From contig QBLU01000020.1 in the NCBI GenBank assembly GCA_003241875.1, forward strand, positions 1-38,162: 38,162 nt of DNA, in the 5' to 3' direction. Position numbers and translations under genes: made by a program. Below are positions 5,960 to 37,322 of this stretch, piece by piece. The notes under the pieces are model-generated. The model worked only from the letters and a program-made list of their open reading frames with translations, did no database searches and was not told the origin of the DNA. The stretch's first letter is position 1; each line of letters begins with the position of its first letter. The DNA comes from Alphaproteobacteria bacterium. GTDB lineage: Bacteria; Pseudomonadota; Alphaproteobacteria; Sphingomonadales; Sphingomonadaceae.

Positions 5960-6688
5960 GTGCGTCATCTCATGCCCTGGCTGTTTACCCTGATCCTTGC
6001 CGTCCATGTCGGGGCCGGCGTCGTCGCGCTGACCAGTCTCTGGGGTGCCGTGGCCACGCGCAAGGGCGGACTTGCTCATCGCCGCTGGGGCACGGCGTTC
6101 AGCGCCTCGATCTATGCGGCCGGCATCATGGCGCTGGGCATGGGGCTGCTGTCGCTGCGTTGGCCGCTGGCGATGCACCCGGGGCTGACCGATTCGCCGC
6201 TGTATCGCGGGCTGTTCGGCTGGATGATGATCTATCTGGCGCTGCTGACGATCAGCATGACCCGCTATGGCCTGAAGATGGTCGCCAACAAGCGGGATCA
6301 TGCCGCCAACCGGCACTGGACGATGGTGACGTTGCAGCTGGTCGTGCTGGTCGCCGCGGTCAACTGCGCCGTCCACGGTCTGCTGCTGCGCCAGCCGCTG
6401 ATGGTCGGGGTGTCGGTGATCGGGTTCGGCACCACGCTGACGTACCTCGCTTATATGTTCCGCCCTGATCCCGGTCGCGCCGACTACATCCCGGAGCATC
6501 TGAAGGCGATGGTGGCGACGGGCATCGCCGCCTATACCGCCTTCCTGTCGGTGGGGCTTGTCGAGCTGGTTCCGGCCCACGCCTTCAATCCGGCGATCTG
6601 GGCGTTGCCGACCGTCGCCGGCATGGCGATCATCGCGTATTTCTTGCGCCTGCAGCGCGGCCAGCGGCGGCCGGGATTACCCGGCTGA
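5960..6688 (+). CDS. DUF2306-like multi-pass membrane protein
   Basis: This is a membrane protein of about 242 residues with roughly six to seven hydrophobic segments. Its start region has a helix with His (LAVHVGAGVVALTSLWGAVA) followed by a basic loop and HRRWGTAF. That His-containing first helix plus LxHRRWG pattern recalls DUF2306 membrane proteins of unknown function. GTG at 5960 is chosen because GGGGGGA lies just before it; ATG at 5972 (MPWLFTLIL) is the alternative. The longer open frame starting at 5888 has no credible N-terminus. It faces away from the small membrane gene at 5499-5888. Confidence 0.75.
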   Translation: MRHLMPWLFTLILAVHVGAGVVALTSLWGAVATRKGGLAHRRWGTAFSASIYAAGIMALGMGLLSLRWPLAMHPGLTDSPLYRGLFGWMMIYLALLTISMTRYGLKMVANKRDHAANRHWTMVTLQLVVLVAAVNCAVHGLLLRQPLMVGVSVIGFGTTLTYLAYMFRPDPGRADYIPEHLKAMVATGIAAYTAFLSVGLVELVPAHAFNPAIWALPTVAGMAIIAYFLRLQRGQRRPGLPG

Positions 6689-6832
6689 TCGCGGTCGCGG
6701 CGCAATCGATTGCTGCAGCGGCATCGCGTTTCCGAATTGTAAATTTTCGCACCGCGACGACGTAACAAAATTGCGCGATCGTTAATATCGGCCGTATTAG
6801 CGACTGAAATCACGATTCTTTCCGGCTTTTCG

Positions 6833-6847
6833 CAATAGTTACTATTG
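6833..6847. promoter_or_regulatory. 15-bp perfect palindrome in an AT-rich gap, possible operator
   Basis: CAATAGT-T-ACTATTG is a perfect palindrome with a one-base centre. It lies in the 286-base gap 6689-6974, whose 6731-6860 part is clearly richer in A and T than the surrounding DNA. It lies 128 bases upstream of the ATG of the choice-of-anchor A gene. It could be a regulator binding site overlapping the promoter. I cannot name the regulator, and no convincing -35/-10 pair was found. Confidence 0.4.
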
Positions 6848-6974
6848 TGTAAAAACGACCCTCGACCTACATGGTCTCCAACGGCATCGCGGCGTGAAAG
6901 CGCCCCTACCCCCCCTTGGACGCGGCTCCCCCCAGTCGCGTGCGATGCCGAACATTTCAGGTCCAGGAGCAATC

Positions 6975-7913
6975 ATGTCCGTGAGCAAGCTCGCCGGTGC
7001 GCTCGTCCTTTTCGCCAGCGCCATTCCCGCCACCGCCGCCACGCTGGTCGACTATTCGCTGATCAGTCTCGGCAACTTCACCGATGCCGGCGGCTCCAGC
7101 TATGGCACCCGCATCGCCGTCGCCGGCAACGCCGCGATCAATTCGACCGCCATCGGCACGCGCCTGGCGGCGGACAGCAACAACAGCGATGTCGTCGTCG
7201 TCGGCGCGAACATCACCTATGACAATGCCACGCTGCGGCACGGCAACGTCGTTTACGGCGGCACCAACGGCAGCGGCCGCTACACCCAGGCGCAGACCCC
7301 CGGCGGCAGCTTTGCGCAGGGCGGCTCGCTCGATTTCGCGGCGATCGGCACCGGCCTGCTCGATCTGTCCAGCGCCTATGGCGCGCTCGCGGCGACCGGC
7401 AGCTTCACCAATCTTTACGGCAGCGGCACCCTGTCCGGCGCGACGACGGTGGGAACCGATGTCTTCACGCTGACGACGGCCGAGCTTGGCAGCCTCCACG
7501 CCCTGCGGCTCGTCGGCACCGCCGGATCGACGGCGATCATCAACGTCATCGGCAGCAGTTTCGGCTCCTACCTCGGCTTCGATCGCGGCAACTATGCGGT
7601 CGCCGACGTGACCTTCAATTTCCTCGATGCGCAGACGCTGGGCTTCGGCGGCATCGATCTCGGCGCCTCGCTGCTGGCGCCGCTGGCGACGCTGACGCAG
7701 AACGGCGGCATCATTCGCGGCAGCGCCGCTGTCGGCAATTTCTTCGGCGCCGGTGCCAGCATCGTCGGGGGCGGCAGCTTTGCCATCCTCGACCCGGTGT
7801 CCGACGGCGCGGGCAGCACGGTGCCGGAGCCGGCAAGCTGGTTCATGCTGGTCGCCGGTTTCGGCATCGTTGGCGTAGCCCAGCGTCGCCGCTGGCGCAG
7901 CGTCGCGGCCTGA
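6975..7913 (+). CDS. Choice-of-anchor A family protein with PEP-CTERM tail
   Basis: This is a 312-residue secreted protein. It has a signal peptide (MSVSKLAGALVLFASAIPATA), then a domain that fits the choice-of-anchor A family: LISLGNFTDAGGSSYGTRIAVAGNAAI, repeated Gly-rich beta stretches and GNVVYGG. It ends in a PEP-CTERM tail: VPEPASWF, a hydrophobic segment, then QRRRW. Members of this family carry varied C-terminal anchors and are thought to be surface proteins. The ATG at 6975 has AGGAG seven bases upstream; an in-frame start at 6894 lacks a ribosome site and would bury the signal peptide. The promoter region is AT-rich and contains a 15-bp palindrome. Confidence 0.9.
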   Translation: MSVSKLAGALVLFASAIPATAATLVDYSLISLGNFTDAGGSSYGTRIAVAGNAAINSTAIGTRLAADSNNSDVVVVGANITYDNATLRHGNVVYGGTNGSGRYTQAQTPGGSFAQGGSLDFAAIGTGLLDLSSAYGALAATGSFTNLYGSGTLSGATTVGTDVFTLTTAELGSLHALRLVGTAGSTAIINVIGSSFGSYLGFDRGNYAVADVTFNFLDAQTLGFGGIDLGASLLAPLATLTQNGGIIRGSAAVGNFFGAGASIVGGGSFAILDPVSDGAGSTVPEPASWFMLVAGFGIVGVAQRRRWRSVAA

Positions 7914-7930: not shown

Positions 7931-10234
7931 TCAGGCGTCGGCGATGGCCGCGTCGAGCGCATCGAGCAACGGGCCGACTTCGCCCAGAAACGGCCGTTCG
8001 GCGGCAACGATGGCGGCAAAGGCCCGGTACTTCAGCACGCGCAGCCGCTCGGCGGACAGCATGGCGCCATCGGGCAGCGCCGAGCAGACGATGTCGATCA
8101 TGCGCTCGGCGCCGTGCAGGCGCCCCCACAGATAGTCATGCTCGCGATAGGCGCGGCTGAAGAACGCCCCGAAGGCGTTGAACTGCGAGCCCTTGAGCGC
8201 GCCGCCGCCGGCAGCGCGCAGCGACAGCGCGTCCTCGGGTGACAGGCGATCGACGAGGATCTCGTCGAATTCGTCGATGCCGTCGCCCTGCAGCAGCGGC
8301 AGCATCGCGATGTCGTAGAACGGAAACCCTAGGTAGCTGCTGAGCAGCGGCCGCCGCAGTTCGCGTGGCCAGGGCCCGGCGAACAGGTCGACCAGCGCCG
8401 CATCGCTGTCGCCATCGAGCCCTTTCAGGTCGAGCGCCTGCGCCATCGCCGCCAGCGCCGCGGCGGGGTCCTCGATCACGGCGGCTGCCGCTTGGCGCAT
8501 GTCGGGACCGAAAAACGTCGATTGGCGGCGCTGCAGATGTGGGTTGAGGATGGTGTAGAGGCCGGTCTTGATGGCTTCGAGCGCCTGCCGCGCCGCGTCG
8601 TCGGCGGTCTCCCCGGCCAGCGTGTTGACCCGGCGGATCAGGAAGCGCAGCCGCCGCACCCGGAATTCGAGATCGAAGCTGCGCAGGAAGCCGACATAGT
8701 CCGAGGCGGCGCCGCCGCGCGCCAGGGCCTGCGACGGATGATCGAGGCCCAGGGTTCGAACATGGCGCCAGACGGCGCTGCGCACCGATTCGAGCGCCAC
8801 CCCGCCGATGCTAGCCAGCCGGATTGCCTGGGCCTCGACGATCTGCGCCATCTTCAGCTGGCCATAGGCGGCATAGGCATAGCCGGCCTCGCGCGCGGCC
8901 TGGCTCTGGGCGCGCGATCGCCAGTCGGCCAGCCGTTCGCGCGTCGGCTTGAAGATGAAGACGCGCAAGCCCGCGGCGCGTTCGATCGCGGCATCGACCT
9001 CGGGCGTCATGCCGTCGACGACATAGCGCAGCCGGCGGACCCGCGCCGACAGCGCATCGATGGCGGCGAGATTGTCGTTGATCGGCTGCTGGCGCGGAAT
9101 ATCGGCGAGGCTGCGCAGCACCGTGGCGAAAAAGCCCGGCAGCACCGGCGAATCGAGCGGCTGGTCGCCGTGCATGCCGGGTTTCGGATCGACATAGACA
9201 AAGCGCCGATCGACCTCGCGGTGCGCCGGGCGGCGGGCCAGCGCCTCGATCGCCGGGCCGAACGGCCGGCTGTTGAGCACCGCGCCGTCGATCAGCGTCG
9301 CGGTATCGGGCGTGGCGCGGCCGGGGAAGATGCGCGCCAGGAACGCCGCGCGCCCTGGCCAGGCGGTGCCGCGCGCCGCGATGACGCGATCGACCTCCCC
9401 GACCCGCGCCGGCGGAAAGGCGCCCGGGAACGATGCCGTGGCCCGCGCCGCGAGCACCAGCTCGGGCAGTTCGGCGAGATGGCGGCTGCCGTCCGGACCC
9501 GGGCCCTCGTCGGTAAAGCCGATGATGAGCCGATGCTCGTTCTCGATGATGACGGGGGGCGAGTGCAGCCGCAGCTTTTCGGGGGCGCCGTGGTAATCGG
9601 TCACCGTCACGAACAGGTCGAGCGGCTGCAGCGGCGGAATCAGCGCCGGCGTGCGGGTTCCCGCCGCCATGGCGACCAGCGCATCGTGCAGCATGGCGGT
9701 GAAGATCTCGCCCGAAAACGGCGGCTTGAACCAGCGTGACCGCATCAGCCGCGACAGTTTCGCCGACACTTCGGTGCGCGCGCCGGGCTCCTGCATGTCG
9801 TCCATGACCAGGCCCTTGTTGCGCGCCCACCAGACCAGCGGCGACGCCCACCATTTCGAGAACCGCGTCGAGGCGCCTTCGGGTTCGAGCAGCTTGTCGC
9901 TGTCGGCGCCGGCGAGCCACAGGTCGCGCAGCGGCTCCATGTCCGACCCCTGCGAGATCGCCTGGGCGAGCAGGATGCCGTTGATGCCGCCCGCCGAGGC
10001 ACCGGCGACGATATCGACGAGGATGCGCAGGTCGAGCTTTGGCGCCAGTTCCTCGAGCAGCGCCAGGTAGACGCCTTCCGAATCGTCGGCCGGCGGCAGG
10101 TCGCTGCTGGTGGCGTGGCGGCGCATGGAAGCGCGGGCGAGCTTCCACACCTCCTTGGTCATGCCGTGCATGTAGACCGCAAGGCTGACGCCACCATAGC
10201 AGACGAGGGCGAGGCGGAGTTCCTTTTCGCGCAT
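7931..10234 (-). CDS. Patatin-like phospholipase (TIGR03607/DUF3376 type)
   Basis: This is a large cytoplasmic patatin-like protein of 767 residues. The lipase nucleophile elbow GASAGG is at residues 78-83 (Ser80), and the catalytic dyad Asp is in DGA at 316-318. The N-terminal oxyanion region reads CYGGVSLAVYMHG instead of the common DGGGxRG, a feature of the long DUF3376-containing subfamily. The C-terminal half (about 400-767) is alpha-helical with no second enzyme motif. The ATG at 10234 has AGGGGAGA immediately upstream; the 14-residue upstream extension is unlikely. The probable role is acyl-ester hydrolysis of phospholipids, with substrate unknown. It converges on the choice-of-anchor A gene with a 17-base gap. 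Confidence 0.9.
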   Translation of the reverse strand: MREKELRLALVCYGGVSLAVYMHGMTKEVWKLARASMRRHATSSDLPPADDSEGVYLALLEELAPKLDLRILVDIVAGASAGGINGILLAQAISQGSDMEPLRDLWLAGADSDKLLEPEGASTRFSKWWASPLVWWARNKGLVMDDMQEPGARTEVSAKLSRLMRSRWFKPPFSGEIFTAMLHDALVAMAAGTRTPALIPPLQPLDLFVTVTDYHGAPEKLRLHSPPVIIENEHRLIIGFTDEGPGPDGSRHLAELPELVLAARATASFPGAFPPARVGEVDRVIAARGTAWPGRAAFLARIFPGRATPDTATLIDGAVLNSRPFGPAIEALARRPAHREVDRRFVYVDPKPGMHGDQPLDSPVLPGFFATVLRSLADIPRQQPINDNLAAIDALSARVRRLRYVVDGMTPEVDAAIERAAGLRVFIFKPTRERLADWRSRAQSQAAREAGYAYAAYGQLKMAQIVEAQAIRLASIGGVALESVRSAVWRHVRTLGLDHPSQALARGGAASDYVGFLRSFDLEFRVRRLRFLIRRVNTLAGETADDAARQALEAIKTGLYTILNPHLQRRQSTFFGPDMRQAAAAVIEDPAAALAAMAQALDLKGLDGDSDAALVDLFAGPWPRELRRPLLSSYLGFPFYDIAMLPLLQGDGIDEFDEILVDRLSPEDALSLRAAGGGALKGSQFNAFGAFFSRAYREHDYLWGRLHGAERMIDIVCSALPDGAMLSAERLRVLKYRAFAAIVAAERPFLGEVGPLLDALDAAIADA

Positions 10235-10380
10235 CGTCTCCCCTTTCCCCTGCTTTATAGGTGGCTCTCGTCGCATCCGATAGCGGCAGCACCGCGGCGA
10301 AGTTGCGGCGGCGGCAGGGTGCCTTTGCGGGGGTGCCTGCGGGGGATTGCCGACGGCGGTGGCGTCCCCATATCGGCACC

Positions 10381-24472: not shown

Positions 24473-25027
24473 CTACAGCTTGGGCAGGGTCACGCCGCGC
24501 TGCCCCATGTATTTGCCGGCGCGGTCGGCATAGCTGACCTCGCAGGGCTCGTTGCCCTTCAGGAACAGGAACTGGCAGGCGCCTTCATTGGCATAGACCT
24601 TGGCCGGCAGCGGCGTCGTGTTGGAAAATTCCAGCGTGACATGGCCCTCCCAGCCGGGCTCCAGCGGCGTCACGTTCACGATGATGCCGCAGCGCGCATA
24701 GGTCGATTTGCCGAGGCAGATGACCAGCACGTCGCGCGGGATACGGAAATACTCGACGGTCCGCGCCAGCGCAAAGCTGTTGGGCGGGATGATGCAGCAA
24801 TCGGTCTTGCGGTCGACGAAGCTGTTCGCCTTGAAATCCTTGGGGTCGACGATCGCCGAATCGACGTTGGTGAAGATCTTGAACTCGTCGGCCACCCGCG
24901 CGTCGTAACCATAGGACGACAGGCCATAGCTGATGCAGCCGCCGCGCTGCTGCCGCTCGACGAACGGCTCGATCATGCCCGTCGTTACGGCTTGTTCACG
25001 AATCCAGCGGTCGGACAGTACTGACAT
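24473..25027 (-). CDS. dcd: dCTP deaminase
   Basis: Dcd deaminates dCTP to dUTP, feeding thymidylate synthesis via dUTPase. The 184 residues match the trimeric family. The conserved [10 protein letters not shown] (about 106-115) is present, and Glu133, the catalytic base, sits in [11 protein letters not shown]. The C-terminal [14 protein letters not shown] is the flexible nucleotide-closing tail. It leads the minus-strand run that ends with DUF2948. The start faces the gene at 25077 across a 49-base AT-rich promoter region. Confidence 0.98.
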
Positions 25028-25049
25028 CGCGGGCGACCTCGTTTATAGA
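25021..25049 (+). promoter_or_regulatory. Sigma-70-type promoter for the gene at 25077
   Basis: CTGACA (25021-25026), a 17-base spacer and TATAGA (25044-25049) are close to the housekeeping consensus TTGACA-N17-TATAAT. The spot lies 28 bases before the ATG at 25077 and overlaps the first codons of dcd on the other strand, so the two divergent genes share the region. Minus-strand TATAAA in the same segment may serve dcd. Confidence 0.6.
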
Positions 25050-25076
25050 TTGTTAAATATTGCGACAGGGAAACCG

Positions 25077-25472
25077 ATGACCGATTCGTTGCTGTATAGC
25101 GATACCGAGGAGCATCTCGCCAATCTCGATCATTGCGGGTCGCGCGATCTGCGCCGCGCCTATGTGGCAATCGTTATTGCGGCGTTGCGCGCCGGATACC
25201 AGGCCATTCCCCGGCCCAAGGGCGCCATTCGCGAACTGCAGATCCGCGAACCCGAGGGGGCCCAGCCCTTTGCCGTCATCGTCAACCAGAACAGCCTGTT
25301 GTTCTACCTGCGCCAGCCCGCGTTGCGCGCCGATCCCGATCTTGCCGAAAAGGCGCGGGCGAAATTCGCCGAACGGCTTCTCGACGATGGCAACAGCAGC
25401 AACGAAGTCCGCATTCCGCTGCGCAACGAGCGCGATGCCGAAGACGTCGTCGAGTGGTTGTTCAGCGCCTGA
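25077..25472 (+). CDS. Small conserved-looking cytoplasmic protein, unknown
   Basis: This is a 131-residue soluble protein, MTDSLLYSDTEEHLANLD..., with no signal peptide or membrane segment. It has a mixed alpha/beta look: PKGAIRELQIREPEG, AVIVNQNSLLFYLRQPALR, an Ala-rich helix, then NEVRIPLRNERDAEDVVEWL. The last stretch is typical of a strand followed by an amphipathic end helix. I do not recognise the family. The ATG lies five bases after AGGG in a well-placed leader, and the sigma-70-type promoter upstream supports it as a real gene. It converges on the UPF0262 gene with a 15-base gap. Confidence 0.75.
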   Translation: MTDSLLYSDTEEHLANLDHCGSRDLRRAYVAIVIAALRAGYQAIPRPKGAIRELQIREPEGAQPFAVIVNQNSLLFYLRQPALRADPDLAEKARAKFAERLLDDGNSSNEVRIPLRNERDAEDVVEWLFSA

Positions 25473-33947: not shown

Positions 33948-34676
33948 ATGAACACCGCCGTCAACAAGCCTGCCCTTGCCGCCGCCATCGTCGGTGCCAG
34001 CTTTGCCCTGTTCCAGGCCTTTGGCCCGGCACCGGCGCGCGGCGACACGGCCACGCTGCACACCACCGCCCGCCTCGGCGCCGCCGCGCCGGCAGCGAGC
34101 CGTGCGACGCCCCCCGCGGTGCGTTTCTCGTCGCTGGCGGAGGCCGGCGACGTCCGTCCGCTGGCGATCAAGCTGCCGCCGGCGCATGCGCCCGGTTTCG
34201 GCCCGGCCGGCACCGCGCGGTTCGACTCGCTCGTCGATGCCGACAGCATCGCGGCGCTGGCCGGCGTCGGCAGCCCCGACAGCGATGCCGCGGCATTGGC
34301 TGCAGCGGCGGTGCTGCGCAGCCTGCAACCGGCCGATCCCTGGGCCACGGCCGGCGGCATTGCATCCCCGCCGATGTCCGACGGTCCCGGCTTCGGACCC
34401 GCGTCCGCAGCAGCATCCGGATTCGGCTCGGTCGCCCTGTCGGGCGGCGAAGCCATCGTCTTCGTGCCGCTCGCCGAAGTGCCCTCAGCCACCGAGGCAC
34501 CGGCCGCAACCGCCGGACAACCGGCGCCGGCCGGCAATACCACCGCCATCATGCCAGAGCCGGGCCTGGCGGTCGGCACGGTGCCGGAGCCGACGACCTG
34601 GGCGATGCTGATCGCCGGCATGGCCATGGTCGGCATCAACCTGCGCCGCCGCGGCCCCCGCGACGTGCTCGCCTGA
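33948..34676 (+). CDS. PEP-CTERM sorting domain protein, Ala/Pro-rich
   Basis: This 242-residue exported protein starts MNTAVNKPALAAAIVGASFA and is extremely rich in Ala, Pro and Gly, with a repeated PGFGPA element (residues near 83 and 149). It ends in the sphingomonad PEP-CTERM tail: GTVPEPTTWAMLIAGMAMVG followed by NLRRRGPR. No enzyme motif is present. GGGAG lies eight bases before the ATG at 33948. It sits between two metabolic genes without obvious functional link, so its position looks incidental. The leader 33875-33947 has a T-rich stretch and GTTAACC. Confidence 0.88.
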   Translation: MNTAVNKPALAAAIVGASFALFQAFGPAPARGDTATLHTTARLGAAAPAASRATPPAVRFSSLAEAGDVRPLAIKLPPAHAPGFGPAGTARFDSLVDADSIAALAGVGSPDSDAAALAAAAVLRSLQPADPWATAGGIASPPMSDGPGFGPASAAASGFGSVALSGGEAIVFVPLAEVPSATEAPAATAGQPAPAGNTTAIMPEPGLAVGTVPEPTTWAMLIAGMAMVGINLRRRGPRDVLA

Positions 34677-34717: not shown

Positions 34718-34729
34718 TTGTCCGGACAA
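34718..34729. promoter_or_regulatory. Palindromic operator directly before the deacetylase operon
   Basis: TTGTCCGGACAA is a perfect 12-bp palindrome ending exactly one base before the ATG at 34730. TTGT-N4-ACAA is the kind of site bound by GntR-type regulators of catabolic operons. A repressor here would block the start of the operon 34730-37322. No regulator gene is seen in the window. Confidence 0.5.
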
Positions 34730-35626
34730 ATGTCCACGGCTCCGCAAGACCCCGGCCTGAACGACCCGGGCCTGTATGACCCTAACCCCGCCGGGCCGCC
34801 GCTGCGCTGGCCCGGCGGCAAGACCTGCGCGGTTTGGGTGGCGCCCAACCTCGAATACTACGAGATCGACCCGCCCGCGCATCCGCGCCGCAAGAGCTGG
34901 GCGAAACCGCACCCCGATGTCGTCGGCTACAGCCATCGCGACCATGCCAATCGCGTCGGCCATTGGCGGATGGCCGACGCCATGTCGCGCCACGGCTTTC
35001 CGGGCAGCGTCAGCCTGTCGGTGGCGCTGTGCGACCATATTCCCGAGGTCGTCGCCGACGGTGTCGCGCGCGGCTGGGAATTCTTCAGCCACGGCATCTA
35101 CAACACCCGCTACGCCTATGACATGGACGAGGCCCAGGAACGCGCCATCATCGAGGACAGCATCGCCACGGTGCAGCGTGCCACCGGGCAGCGCATCCGC
35201 GGCTGGCTGGCGCCGGCGCTGACCCACACCGTCCGCACCATGGACCTGATCGCCGAATACGGCCTCGACTATACCTGCGACCTGTACCACGACGACCGGC
35301 CCGGCCGGGTCCGCACGGCAACCGGCGACCTGATCTCGATGCCCTACAGCCTCGAGGTCAACGACCACTACGGCTTCTTCATCTACAACATGAGCCCGCG
35401 CGACTATGCCGACGCGCTGATCCGCCAGTACGACCGGCTGGCGCGCGAAGGCGAGGCCAGCGGCACCGTCATGTGCATCCCGCTGCACAGCTACCTCATC
35501 GGCCAGCCGCACCGCATCGGGCCGTTCGAACGCGTGCTCGAACACATCGCCGCCGATGGCCGGGCGTGGATCACCACCGCCGGCGCCATCGCCGACGCGT
35601 ATCGGGAGAAGGACCGGCAGCCATGA
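34730..35626 (+). CDS. Polysaccharide-deacetylase-fold protein, PuuE-like (first copy)
   Basis: This 298-residue cytoplasmic protein is of the NodB/polysaccharide deacetylase superfamily. It has NLEYYE where NodB enzymes have the metal-binding Asp pair, SHGIYNTRYAYD for the HxxxH region, and MCIPLHSYLIGQPHR near the end. This resembles the allantoinase PuuE branch, whose substrates are cyclic amides and ureides rather than chitin. ATG is chosen at 34730, after the operator palindrome; an in-frame TTG at 34718 lies inside it. Its stop overlaps the next start as ATGA. A second, more distant copy follows at 36390. Confidence 0.9.
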   Translation: MSTAPQDPGLNDPGLYDPNPAGPPLRWPGGKTCAVWVAPNLEYYEIDPPAHPRRKSWAKPHPDVVGYSHRDHANRVGHWRMADAMSRHGFPGSVSLSVALCDHIPEVVADGVARGWEFFSHGIYNTRYAYDMDEAQERAIIEDSIATVQRATGQRIRGWLAPALTHTVRTMDLIAEYGLDYTCDLYHDDRPGRVRTATGDLISMPYSLEVNDHYGFFIYNMSPRDYADALIRQYDRLAREGEASGTVMCIPLHSYLIGQPHRIGPFERVLEHIAADGRAWITTAGAIADAYREKDRQP

Positions 35627-36393
35627 TCCAATCGATGCCGACGCAGCTTGCGGCCTGGACCGAATTCGTCGCCGCCGTCGCCCAGTTGCTATGGCCCCTG
35701 ATCGTCCTCGCCGCGCTGCTGGCTTTCCGGCGACCAGCGCTCCGCGCGCTCGGTCAGGTATCGCAGAACGGTGGAACAATCGAAGTATTTGGGGTCAAGG
35801 TCAACGTCAGCAAAGCCGCGGAGGAGCAACAAGTTCTGATTGGAGACCTTCAGAAACAAATAGCCGTCATTCGTGAGTCGCTACAGCGGTCGTCATCGTT
35901 AACGCACGCCGAGAACATTGCCACCGCCACGAAAGATGAATTCGGCGAAAGCGTGGATATTCACAGTTCGACCGATATGTCTTTCAGCGGTACCGGAACT
36001 CGGTTGTCAGAATTACCGCCTCCGCAATTGCTTTGGGTTGACGATGTCCCGGAGAACAACGCGTTGCTTATGGCTTCACTTGAAAAGCGCGGCATAAGCG
36101 TTGTGCAGGCTCTCGACACGGCGACAGCACTCGGCAAGTTCAAGCCCGGCCGCTACGCAGCGGTGATCAGCGACATGGGCCGCGACACGCCTGATGCCGG
36201 TGTTTTTCTGACAAAGGCACTCCGCGCAGTAGACGACCATGTGCCCGTGTTCATCTTTTGCAGCTTGGGTGCGAAGCGCAGGTTTGGCGACGCGGCCATG
36301 CACGCCGGGGCAACCGCCGTCACCGACTCCGCGACGGAGTTGCTCGAAATGCTCGACACTCTGGGTCTTGACGTGTGGCGTAAACGTCGATGA
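35623..36393 (+). CDS. Membrane-anchored receiver-like (REC) protein, foreign-looking
   Basis: This 256-residue protein has a single N-terminal membrane helix (about 14-36), a short coiled region (65-90), then a CheY-like receiver domain from about 134. The domain reads LLWVDDVPENN (Asp140, Asp141), VISDMGRD (Asp184, the phosphoacceptor position) and FIFCSLGAK. The lysine expected near residue 235 is replaced (AVTDS), so it may not switch by phosphorylation. GC falls to about 50% over 35761-36000 (hand count) against about 70% around it. The start and stop overlap the flanking genes by ATGA. Such D..NN and SDMGR receiver domains occur near signalling and conflict modules; the role here is unknown. 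Confidence 0.85.
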   Translation: MIQSMPTQLAAWTEFVAAVAQLLWPLIVLAALLAFRRPALRALGQVSQNGGTIEVFGVKVNVSKAAEEQQVLIGDLQKQIAVIRESLQRSSSLTHAENIATATKDEFGESVDIHSSTDMSFSGTGTRLSELPPPQLLWVDDVPENNALLMASLEKRGISVVQALDTATALGKFKPGRYAAVISDMGRDTPDAGVFLTKALRAVDDHVPVFIFCSLGAKRRFGDAAMHAGATAVTDSATELLEMLDTLGLDVWRKRR

Positions 36394-37322
36394 GCCTCGA
36401 TCCCGCCTATCTCGAATACCCGCGCCGCCGCCGCGGCATGGACCACGACCTTTATCCCTGGTCGAACATCGCCGAGCGACCGCCGATCGCCTGGCCCGGT
36501 GGCAAGCGCGTCGCCGTCGTCATCGTCATCTCGTGCGAATTCTTCCCGCTGACCCCGGTCGACGCGCCGTTCCGCGCCCCCGGCCACATGCAGACGGCGT
36601 TTCCCGATTACCGGCATTTCACGGCGCGCGACTATGGCTCGCGCCTGGGCGTGCCGCGGCTGGTCGAGGCGCTGGCAGCGGTCGGCGCCCATGCCGGCTT
36701 TGCGATGAACAGCCGCTGGGCGGAGCGATTTCCCGATCTCGCCCGCGCGATCGTCGCCGCCGGCCACGAGGTCATCGCCCATTCGACCGACATGAACGGC
36801 ACCATCGCCACCGGGCTGCCGGAGGACGACGAACGCGCGCTGATCGCCGACAGCCTCGATGGCCTCCACGCCGTGACCGGCCGACGCCCGACCGGCTGGC
36901 TGTCGATCGCCCGCTCGCAAAGCTGGAACACGCCGCGGCTGCTGGCGGCGGCGGGGCTGGGCTATTGCCTCGACTGGGTCAACGACGAGCTGCCGTACCG
37001 GATGACGACGCCGGCGGGGTCGATCGTCAACCTGCCGCTCAATCACGAGCTCAGCGATCGCCAGGTCATCGCCACCTGCCAGCAATCCGCCGACAGCTAT
37101 GCCGAGCAGCTTCGCGACGCCTATCTGTGGCTCGATGGCGAGGTCGACCAGCGAGACGGCTGGAATGGGGGGGGCCGCATGCTGCCCATCCACCTGACGC
37201 CCTATATCAGCGCGCTGCCCTATCGCATCGATGCCATTGCGGCGCTGCTGCACTGGCTGGCGGCGCAGCCCGGCGCCTGGTTCGCCCGCCCCGACGCGGT
37301 GGTGGCCGCCGCCCGCGTCTGA
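36390..37322 (+). CDS. Polysaccharide-deacetylase-fold protein, PuuE-like (second copy)
   Basis: This 310-residue protein is a distant paralogue of the one at 34730. It begins MSLDPAYLEYPRRRRGMDHD and has WPGGKRVAVVIVISCEFF where the metal Asp pair would be. It continues with RDYGSRLGVPRLVEAL, EVIAHSTDMNGTIA for the His region, and PTGWLSIARSQSW. This fits the allantoinase/PuuE-type branch of the NodB superfamily. The ATG overlaps the stop of the receiver-like gene. The two deacetylase-fold genes and the receiver gene form one unit under the palindromic operator. A substrate such as an N-carbamoyl or cyclic ureide compound is inference from the neighbours. Confidence 0.88.
   Translation: MSLDPAYLEYPRRRRGMDHDLYPWSNIAERPPIAWPGGKRVAVVIVISCEFFPLTPVDAPFRAPGHMQTAFPDYRHFTARDYGSRLGVPRLVEALAAVGAHAGFAMNSRWAERFPDLARAIVAAGHEVIAHSTDMNGTIATGLPEDDERALIADSLDGLHAVTGRRPTGWLSIARSQSWNTPRLLAAAGLGYCLDWVNDELPYRMTTPAGSIVNLPLNHELSDRQVIATCQQSADSYAEQLRDAYLWLDGEVDQRDGWNGGGRMLPIHLTPYISALPYRIDAIAALLHWLAAQPGAWFARPDAVVAAARV

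Follow-up and report, generated by a model that had tools for sequence, protein, structure and literature searches.

Why does a gene for a receiver-like protein lie between two deacetylase genes of a catabolic operon? The question is raised by 38,162 nucleotides of DNA from an alphaproteobacterium of the Sphingomonadaceae; this whole stretch is what we call the window. An earlier note had described the gene as captured between the two deacetylase genes and had suggested that its product could be a new sensor or a conflict component. The features that matter for the argument are the following:

34718-34729, no strand: 12-bp perfect palindrome TTGTCCGGACAA just 5' of the first deacetylase gene (from the sequence).
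34730-35626, forward strand: first polysaccharide-deacetylase-fold gene, likely ATG at 34730, stop at 35624-35626 (Pfam PF01522, scanned from 34748; orthologues).
35623-36389, forward strand: inserted segment of 767 bp with the direct repeat ATGA at both edges (empty-site comparison with 15 relatives, repeat search).
35623-36393, forward strand: receiver gene, membrane-tethered, 256 amino acids, ATG at 35623, stop at 36391-36393 (open reading frame, Pfam, alignments).
35665-35721, forward strand: transmembrane helix, residues 15-33 (hydropathy 2.41 over 19 residues).
36025-36357, forward strand: receiver domain, residues 135-245, with the motifs LLWVDDVPENN and SDMGR (Pfam, alignments).
36390-37322, forward strand: second polysaccharide-deacetylase-fold gene (Pfam PF01522, orthologues in the 15 relatives that have the adjacent pair).

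The first deacetylase gene has orthologues in 15 relatives (60-95% identity). Its reading frame can be started at 34718, which is a TTG within the palindrome, but translation more likely begins at the in-frame ATG at 34730. The palindrome also stands 5' of the first deacetylase gene in two of the 15 relatives, unchanged in G007 and with one base altered in G018 (by eye). Further upstream, the window encodes PEP-CTERM, isochorismatase, Rieske oxygenase and M20 peptidase proteins (Pfam). The PEP-CTERM gene (33948-34676) separates the isochorismatase gene from the first deacetylase gene; because an isochorismatase-like end precedes the first deacetylase in several other relatives (by eye), it may be another insertion. 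A scan of 18 window proteins revealed no kinase, the receiver gene adjoins no gene for a TIR protein, a nuclease or a kinase, and nothing within the window connects it to defence. A patatin/DUF3376 gene lies at 7931-10276, about 25 kb upstream, with no link shown.

How the receiver gene came to lie here is best seen in genomes that lack it. The comparison covered 60 genomes including the window's own, leaving 59 relatives, and none of the 59 has a full-length match to the receiver. Weak partial matches in six of them are ordinary receivers by profile (four of the six confirmed by Pfam on the protein). The second deacetylase is present in 16 relatives and the two deacetylase genes are adjacent in 15. 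These 15 are the kind of genome the earlier note had proposed to look for, with the pair adjacent and the insert missing, and in none of them does a receiver gene separate the two. Where the junction is empty, the two genes overlap by 4 bases in 11 of the 15 (ATGA in ten, GTGA in G006), overlap by 1 base in G034 and are 4 bases apart in G055. Compared with these empty junctions, the window carries a 767-bp insert with ATGA edges, whose flanks are 76-88% identical to three close relatives. The receiver gene overlaps the first deacetylase gene by ATGA at 35623-35626 and the second by ATGA at 36390-36393; the note had read these overlaps as a capture that left translational coupling intact. The sequence shows that the receiver gene entered precisely where the two catabolic genes overlapped in ATGA, and that a new ATGA now links it to the second of them.

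In the window, GGAGAAGG precedes the receiver ATG at a distance of 10 bases, and a comparable GGGAG precedes the second deacetylase in G018 and G006 (by eye). This placement suggests that the insert now uses the ribosome-binding site that once served the second deacetylase. In the two other relatives with the adjacent pair (G008 and G014; L023 and L024) the deacetylase junction carries a palindromic repeat roughly 135 bases long (CCTCCCCAAAC...GTTTGGGGAGG), so that the receiver gene is not the only thing to have interrupted it. A similar element is also found 5' of the first deacetylase in both genomes.

Two other accounts of the insertion were rejected. A mobile-element cargo with its own transposon-like ends should be bracketed by terminal inverted repeats, and the repeat search found none, only the 4-base ATGA at the edges; none of the inverted repeats that it listed brackets the insert. 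A receiver gene conserved in this operon is incompatible with its absence from all 15 relatives that have the adjacent pair.

The low GC content ascribed to the receiver gene is real. The whole gene has a GC content of 58.5%, versus 68.5% and 70.0% in the flanking genes, and the 240 bases from 35761 reach only 51.2%. Past codon 44, 136 of 212 third codon positions are G or C, compared with 1472 of 1682 in five pooled host genes (64% versus 88%, p = 9e-16), which marks the captured segment beyond that codon as foreign. The further claim that the first 130 or so bases match the host stands in part: the first 132 bases have 68.2% GC, and their third positions (36 of 44) do not differ from those of the host (p = 0.25), but they are only weakly distinct from the remainder of the gene (p = 0.02). 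Relatives of the protein carry a similar W-P-x-x-V transmembrane segment, and hence the host-like start need not be borrowed host sequence. A chimera with the first 130 bases derived from the host was rejected for the same reason, together with the weakness of the third-position split (p = 0.02 only). Elsewhere in the window, positions 6661-7020 and 24901-25200 are also low in GC (53-57% versus a window mean of 68%).

The protein shows a single strong hydrophobic peak at residues 15-33, followed by a linker and the receiver domain at residues 135-245. An RR directly follows the transmembrane helix, and the receiver domain should hence be cytoplasmic. According to the alignments, the acidic pair (D140, D141) and the phospho-acceptor aspartate (D184) are retained. 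The switch lysine is absent, with a serine in that alignment column (read by eye). Both the missing lysine and the membrane tether had been pointed out before; both hold up, and both are common to the relatives. Against the Pfam model Response_reg the window receiver scores 29.3 bits, narrowly under the cut-off of 30.2, which the relatives L071, L058 and L070, unlike the window protein, exceed.

These relatives form a sparsely distributed family with the signature LWVDDxPxNN...SDMxR and a lost lysine. Pattern scans found members in 4 of 385 genomes of the class, 7 of 398 of the phylum and 2 of 369 of another class, which makes ten distinct genomes across the three scans, the window's own included. 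L008 and L009 were recovered by peptide patterns from the window protein. Viral contigs gave 13 pattern matches, corresponding to eight distinct receiver proteins, and one more by profile. Independently of the motif, a protein search of plasmid records recovered relatives from E. coli and Proteus, and these carry WVDDRPENN and WVDDNPSNN. The plasmid-record matches number three, all in chromosome-sized records filed as plasmids, and the best reaches about 44% identity in the receiver portion alone. A protein search of phage records with the window receiver returned no match. The relatives in alignment A2 are 20-34% identical across the whole protein. L041, L044, L046 and L049 represent a single protein of the E. 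coli type and enter the counts as one; L038 and L047 were dropped as chance occurrences of the motif in long phage proteins (by eye). Conservation of WVDDxPxNN is partly by construction, since most members were baited by that pattern or by peptides containing part of it. The lost lysine was never bait, and the SDMxR stretch was bait only as one peptide among those used.

In a tree built from 21 family domains of 20 proteins (the broken L062 was left out) and six ordinary receivers from related genomes, the two groups split with support of 100/99, a grouping partly helped by the motif-based choice of members. The lysine is present in none of the 21 family domains versus five of the six ordinary receivers (by eye; L042 is poorly aligned there). 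The phospho-acceptor aspartate is kept in 20 of the 21, the exception being L076, which like L062 looks broken. The alignments and the tree indicate that the window copy and the conflict-linked proteins belong to one receiver family, separate from ordinary receivers. In a literature search, limited for subscription papers, we found no publication naming this family, which is not proof of absence.

Within the family the N-terminal part is exchanged around one receiver type, which suggests a sensor with interchangeable effectors. It can be a single transmembrane helix, two hydrophobic segments (the E. coli type, by eye), a TIR domain (L071, PF13676) or a winged helix with a membrane helix (L063 and L072, by eye). 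Large family proteins of 1211 (L058) and 1815 amino acids (L070) occur in caspase/MoxR loci: the first beside a caspase and a MoxR-like AAA gene, the second, with two receivers and GAF domains, beside a caspase/VMAP-C and a MoxR-like AAA gene.

On a prophage-like contig (L052), a Cap12/PCTIR TIR gene overlaps a membrane receiver gene, with an Eco57I-type methylase nearby. L009 has SIR2_2 and nSTAND1-WD40 genes as neighbours, and L073 a patatin gene. In E. coli the receiver gene stands beside an AAA_15/AAA_21 ATPase gene; each of the two is found in 26 of 5426 genomes, and in three annotated records (L032, L077, L078) they lie together between yfgI and guaA. On three phage-like contigs, where it is encoded on the opposite strand, the receiver gene separates the small terminase gene from the large one (L050), separates the large one from the portal gene (L059) or lies beyond tail and terminase genes (L060). 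Adjoining genes elsewhere encode a phage-type methyltransferase (L051), an acetyltransferase (L053) and a cyclase (L057). In the last case, a protein with an alpha/beta-hydrolase and a class III nucleotide cyclase (L057:8735-10078) follows the membrane receiver gene, and the two may form a Pycsar-like pair. The share of prophages is inflated because a viral collection was searched.

The ten genomes from the genome scans weigh against a conflict role. Only three have a conflict module, fused to the receiver or adjacent to it (G635, G529, G795), two have the winged-helix form, three a stand-alone receiver (the window's genome included) and two a broken-looking copy. No conflict neighbour was recognised beside the window copy, L008, L033/L061, L074, the winged-helix L063 and L072, or the broken-looking L062 and L076 (the neighbours of L008, L061, L062, L063, L072, L074 and L076 were judged by eye only). 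The proposal of a conflict component gains indirect support from some relatives, which are fused or adjacent to TIR, Cap12-type TIR, SIR2/nSTAND1, caspase/MoxR, patatin or AAA genes, and none from the neighbours of the window copy. Likewise, of the partners it had been suggested to look for next to homologues, TIR genes were found in some relatives, and no kinase among the neighbours scanned. The six ordinary receivers, taken as a control, have classical contexts only: NtrC-type, hybrid kinase, chemotaxis, efflux and channel (10 proteins scanned).

Two further observations concern the surroundings of family members. REP-associated (Y1-type) transposase-like genes lie near two of them (L071:9998-10267 and L076:6845-7387, by eye). 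The gene guaA, which we take to be an integration hotspot, adjoins two quite different members, the E. coli protein (L032, L077, L078) and L063 (G384, guaA by eye).

Among PDB structures, the closest matches to a profile of 12 members were the receivers of RcsC and CheY, and the best NCBIfam matches were ordinary two-component proteins, with the RcsC model in 9 of the 12. PADLOC-DB 2.0.0 held no family for the window protein at E values up to 1; for the 12 members it gave weak matches for a few, the best being LeoBC at 1.9e-5 (one of 12), with PDC-M43A in two of 12. In PHROGs no named family appeared for the window receiver.

The protein shares the domain, the acidic pair and the phospho-acceptor aspartate with ordinary two-component receivers (PF00072). 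It differs in having no lysine, a membrane helix in place of an output domain, no adjacent kinase and a separate branch in the tree. A normal two-component regulator was rejected on the lack of an adjacent kinase, the missing lysine and the separate branch. Detocs is an operon of kinase, receiver and effector, whereas both neighbours of the window's receiver gene encode deacetylases, and its 18 scanned proteins include no kinase. A Cap12/Pycsar TIR effector gene (PF10137) overlaps the receiver gene in L052, but none lies next to the window copy.

In the accessible parts of two papers, receivers without histidine kinases are described in the VMAP, iSTAND2 and TERNS3 ternary conflict systems (PMC8195603, PMC7159879), and nucleotide-responsive switching is predicted for such kinase-independent conflict receivers (PMC8195603). 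L058 and L070 lie in look-alike caspase/MoxR loci with no kinase near; the window copy, compared by description only, is unlike these systems in being a stand-alone membrane protein without a ternary partner. Phages encode cRec, a cyclic-phosphate processing receiver which the available text proposes to be an enzyme beside RNA-repair or ADP-ribose genes (PMC7824862). Likened by description only, both are divergent receivers that retain the conserved aspartates, stand apart from two-component systems and are linked to NAD/ADP-ribose enzymes (here TIR and SIR2 by some relatives); the proposed enzymatic role and the RNA-repair or ADP-ribose neighbours set cRec apart. No cRec family appeared in Pfam for the window protein at E values up to 0.1, although Pfam may hold no such model. 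In the part of the DefensePredictor paper available, a receiver is mentioned in one figure legend (PMC13092281). Kinase-independent conflict receivers have thus already been predicted in print (PMC8195603), and what looks new is the variant that stands alone and is tethered to the membrane.

What, then, is the gene doing between the deacetylases? We give an even chance to the reading that it encodes a horizontally acquired, kinase-independent receiver of the conflict type with a membrane effector, from a family found in prophages and suspected conflict systems. The gene may hence be a stray component of a defence system and not a regulator of the ordinary kind. Against this reading stand the lack of a conflict gene beside the window copy, the small share of conflict modules in the genome scans, the low identity among relatives, the use of the motif as bait, the viral collection behind the prophage locations, the absence of a PADLOC match for the window protein and the ordinary two-component proteins among the best NCBIfam matches. 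Under this reading, the receiver, with its two acidic residues and D184 but no lysine, would bind a metal and a phosphate-bearing signal. The signal would come from an infection-linked nucleotide or phosphodonor, not from a dedicated histidine kinase. Via the linker, binding would alter how the protein associates with itself, and the effector would be the membrane helix, which would either perturb the membrane or keep a partner at it. Among the relatives, other effectors (TIR, caspase-locus proteins) are joined to the receiver in the helix's place.

A bolder version is possible but doubtful. It holds that the family is a widespread, so far undescribed class of one-gene membrane immune switches, in which a lysine-less receiver binds an infection-made phosphorylated ligand, needs no kinase and fires its own membrane helix. 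Such switches would be accessory genes in prophage packaging regions, would lodge scarlessly in overlapping host operons and would share their sensor with proteins of the TIR, winged-helix and caspase types.

One could also argue that the protein is an orphan response regulator, phosphorylated by another host kinase or by small phosphodonors, that positions or controls a membrane partner and has no role in conflict. The intact D140, D141 and D184 and the domain's match to ordinary receivers fit such a regulator, and the membrane winged-helix proteins L063 and L072 (by eye) have the architecture of one-component transcription regulators. What makes this rather unlikely is that the lysine is missing from 21 of 21 family domains versus present in five of six ordinary receivers, that 59 of 59 relatives have no full-length match, and that several family members sit with TIR, SIR2, caspase or prophage genes and without a kinase among the neighbours scanned.

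Quite unlikely, in our estimate, is a stray gene kept merely since its landing at a coupled junction spared the operon. It has no partner gene nearby and no close relative was found, the broken-looking L062 and L076 imply that copies do decay, and in G008 and G014 this junction is occupied by a palindromic repeat. A mere passenger is harder to reconcile with a reading frame and family motifs that are intact in the window, and with ATGA at both overlaps. That the protein serves this catabolic operon as its sensor or regulator is very improbable: the overlaps imply co-transcription, but the gene is absent from all 15 relatives with the adjacent pair, and the sensor idea of the earlier note found no support in the 27 scanned neighbour proteins of relatives, among which there was no deacetylase family (four of the 27 gave no match at all).

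If the conflict reading is true, a receiver, a domain known mostly for being phosphorylated by histidine kinases, would double as a stand-alone, kinase-free immune sensor. One sensor would be swapped between membrane, TIR and caspase-type effectors, and its signal could be sought most simply in the single-gene membrane form. The junction offers a clean and directly testable case of a foreign gene that entered a translationally coupled pair with overlaps on both sides.
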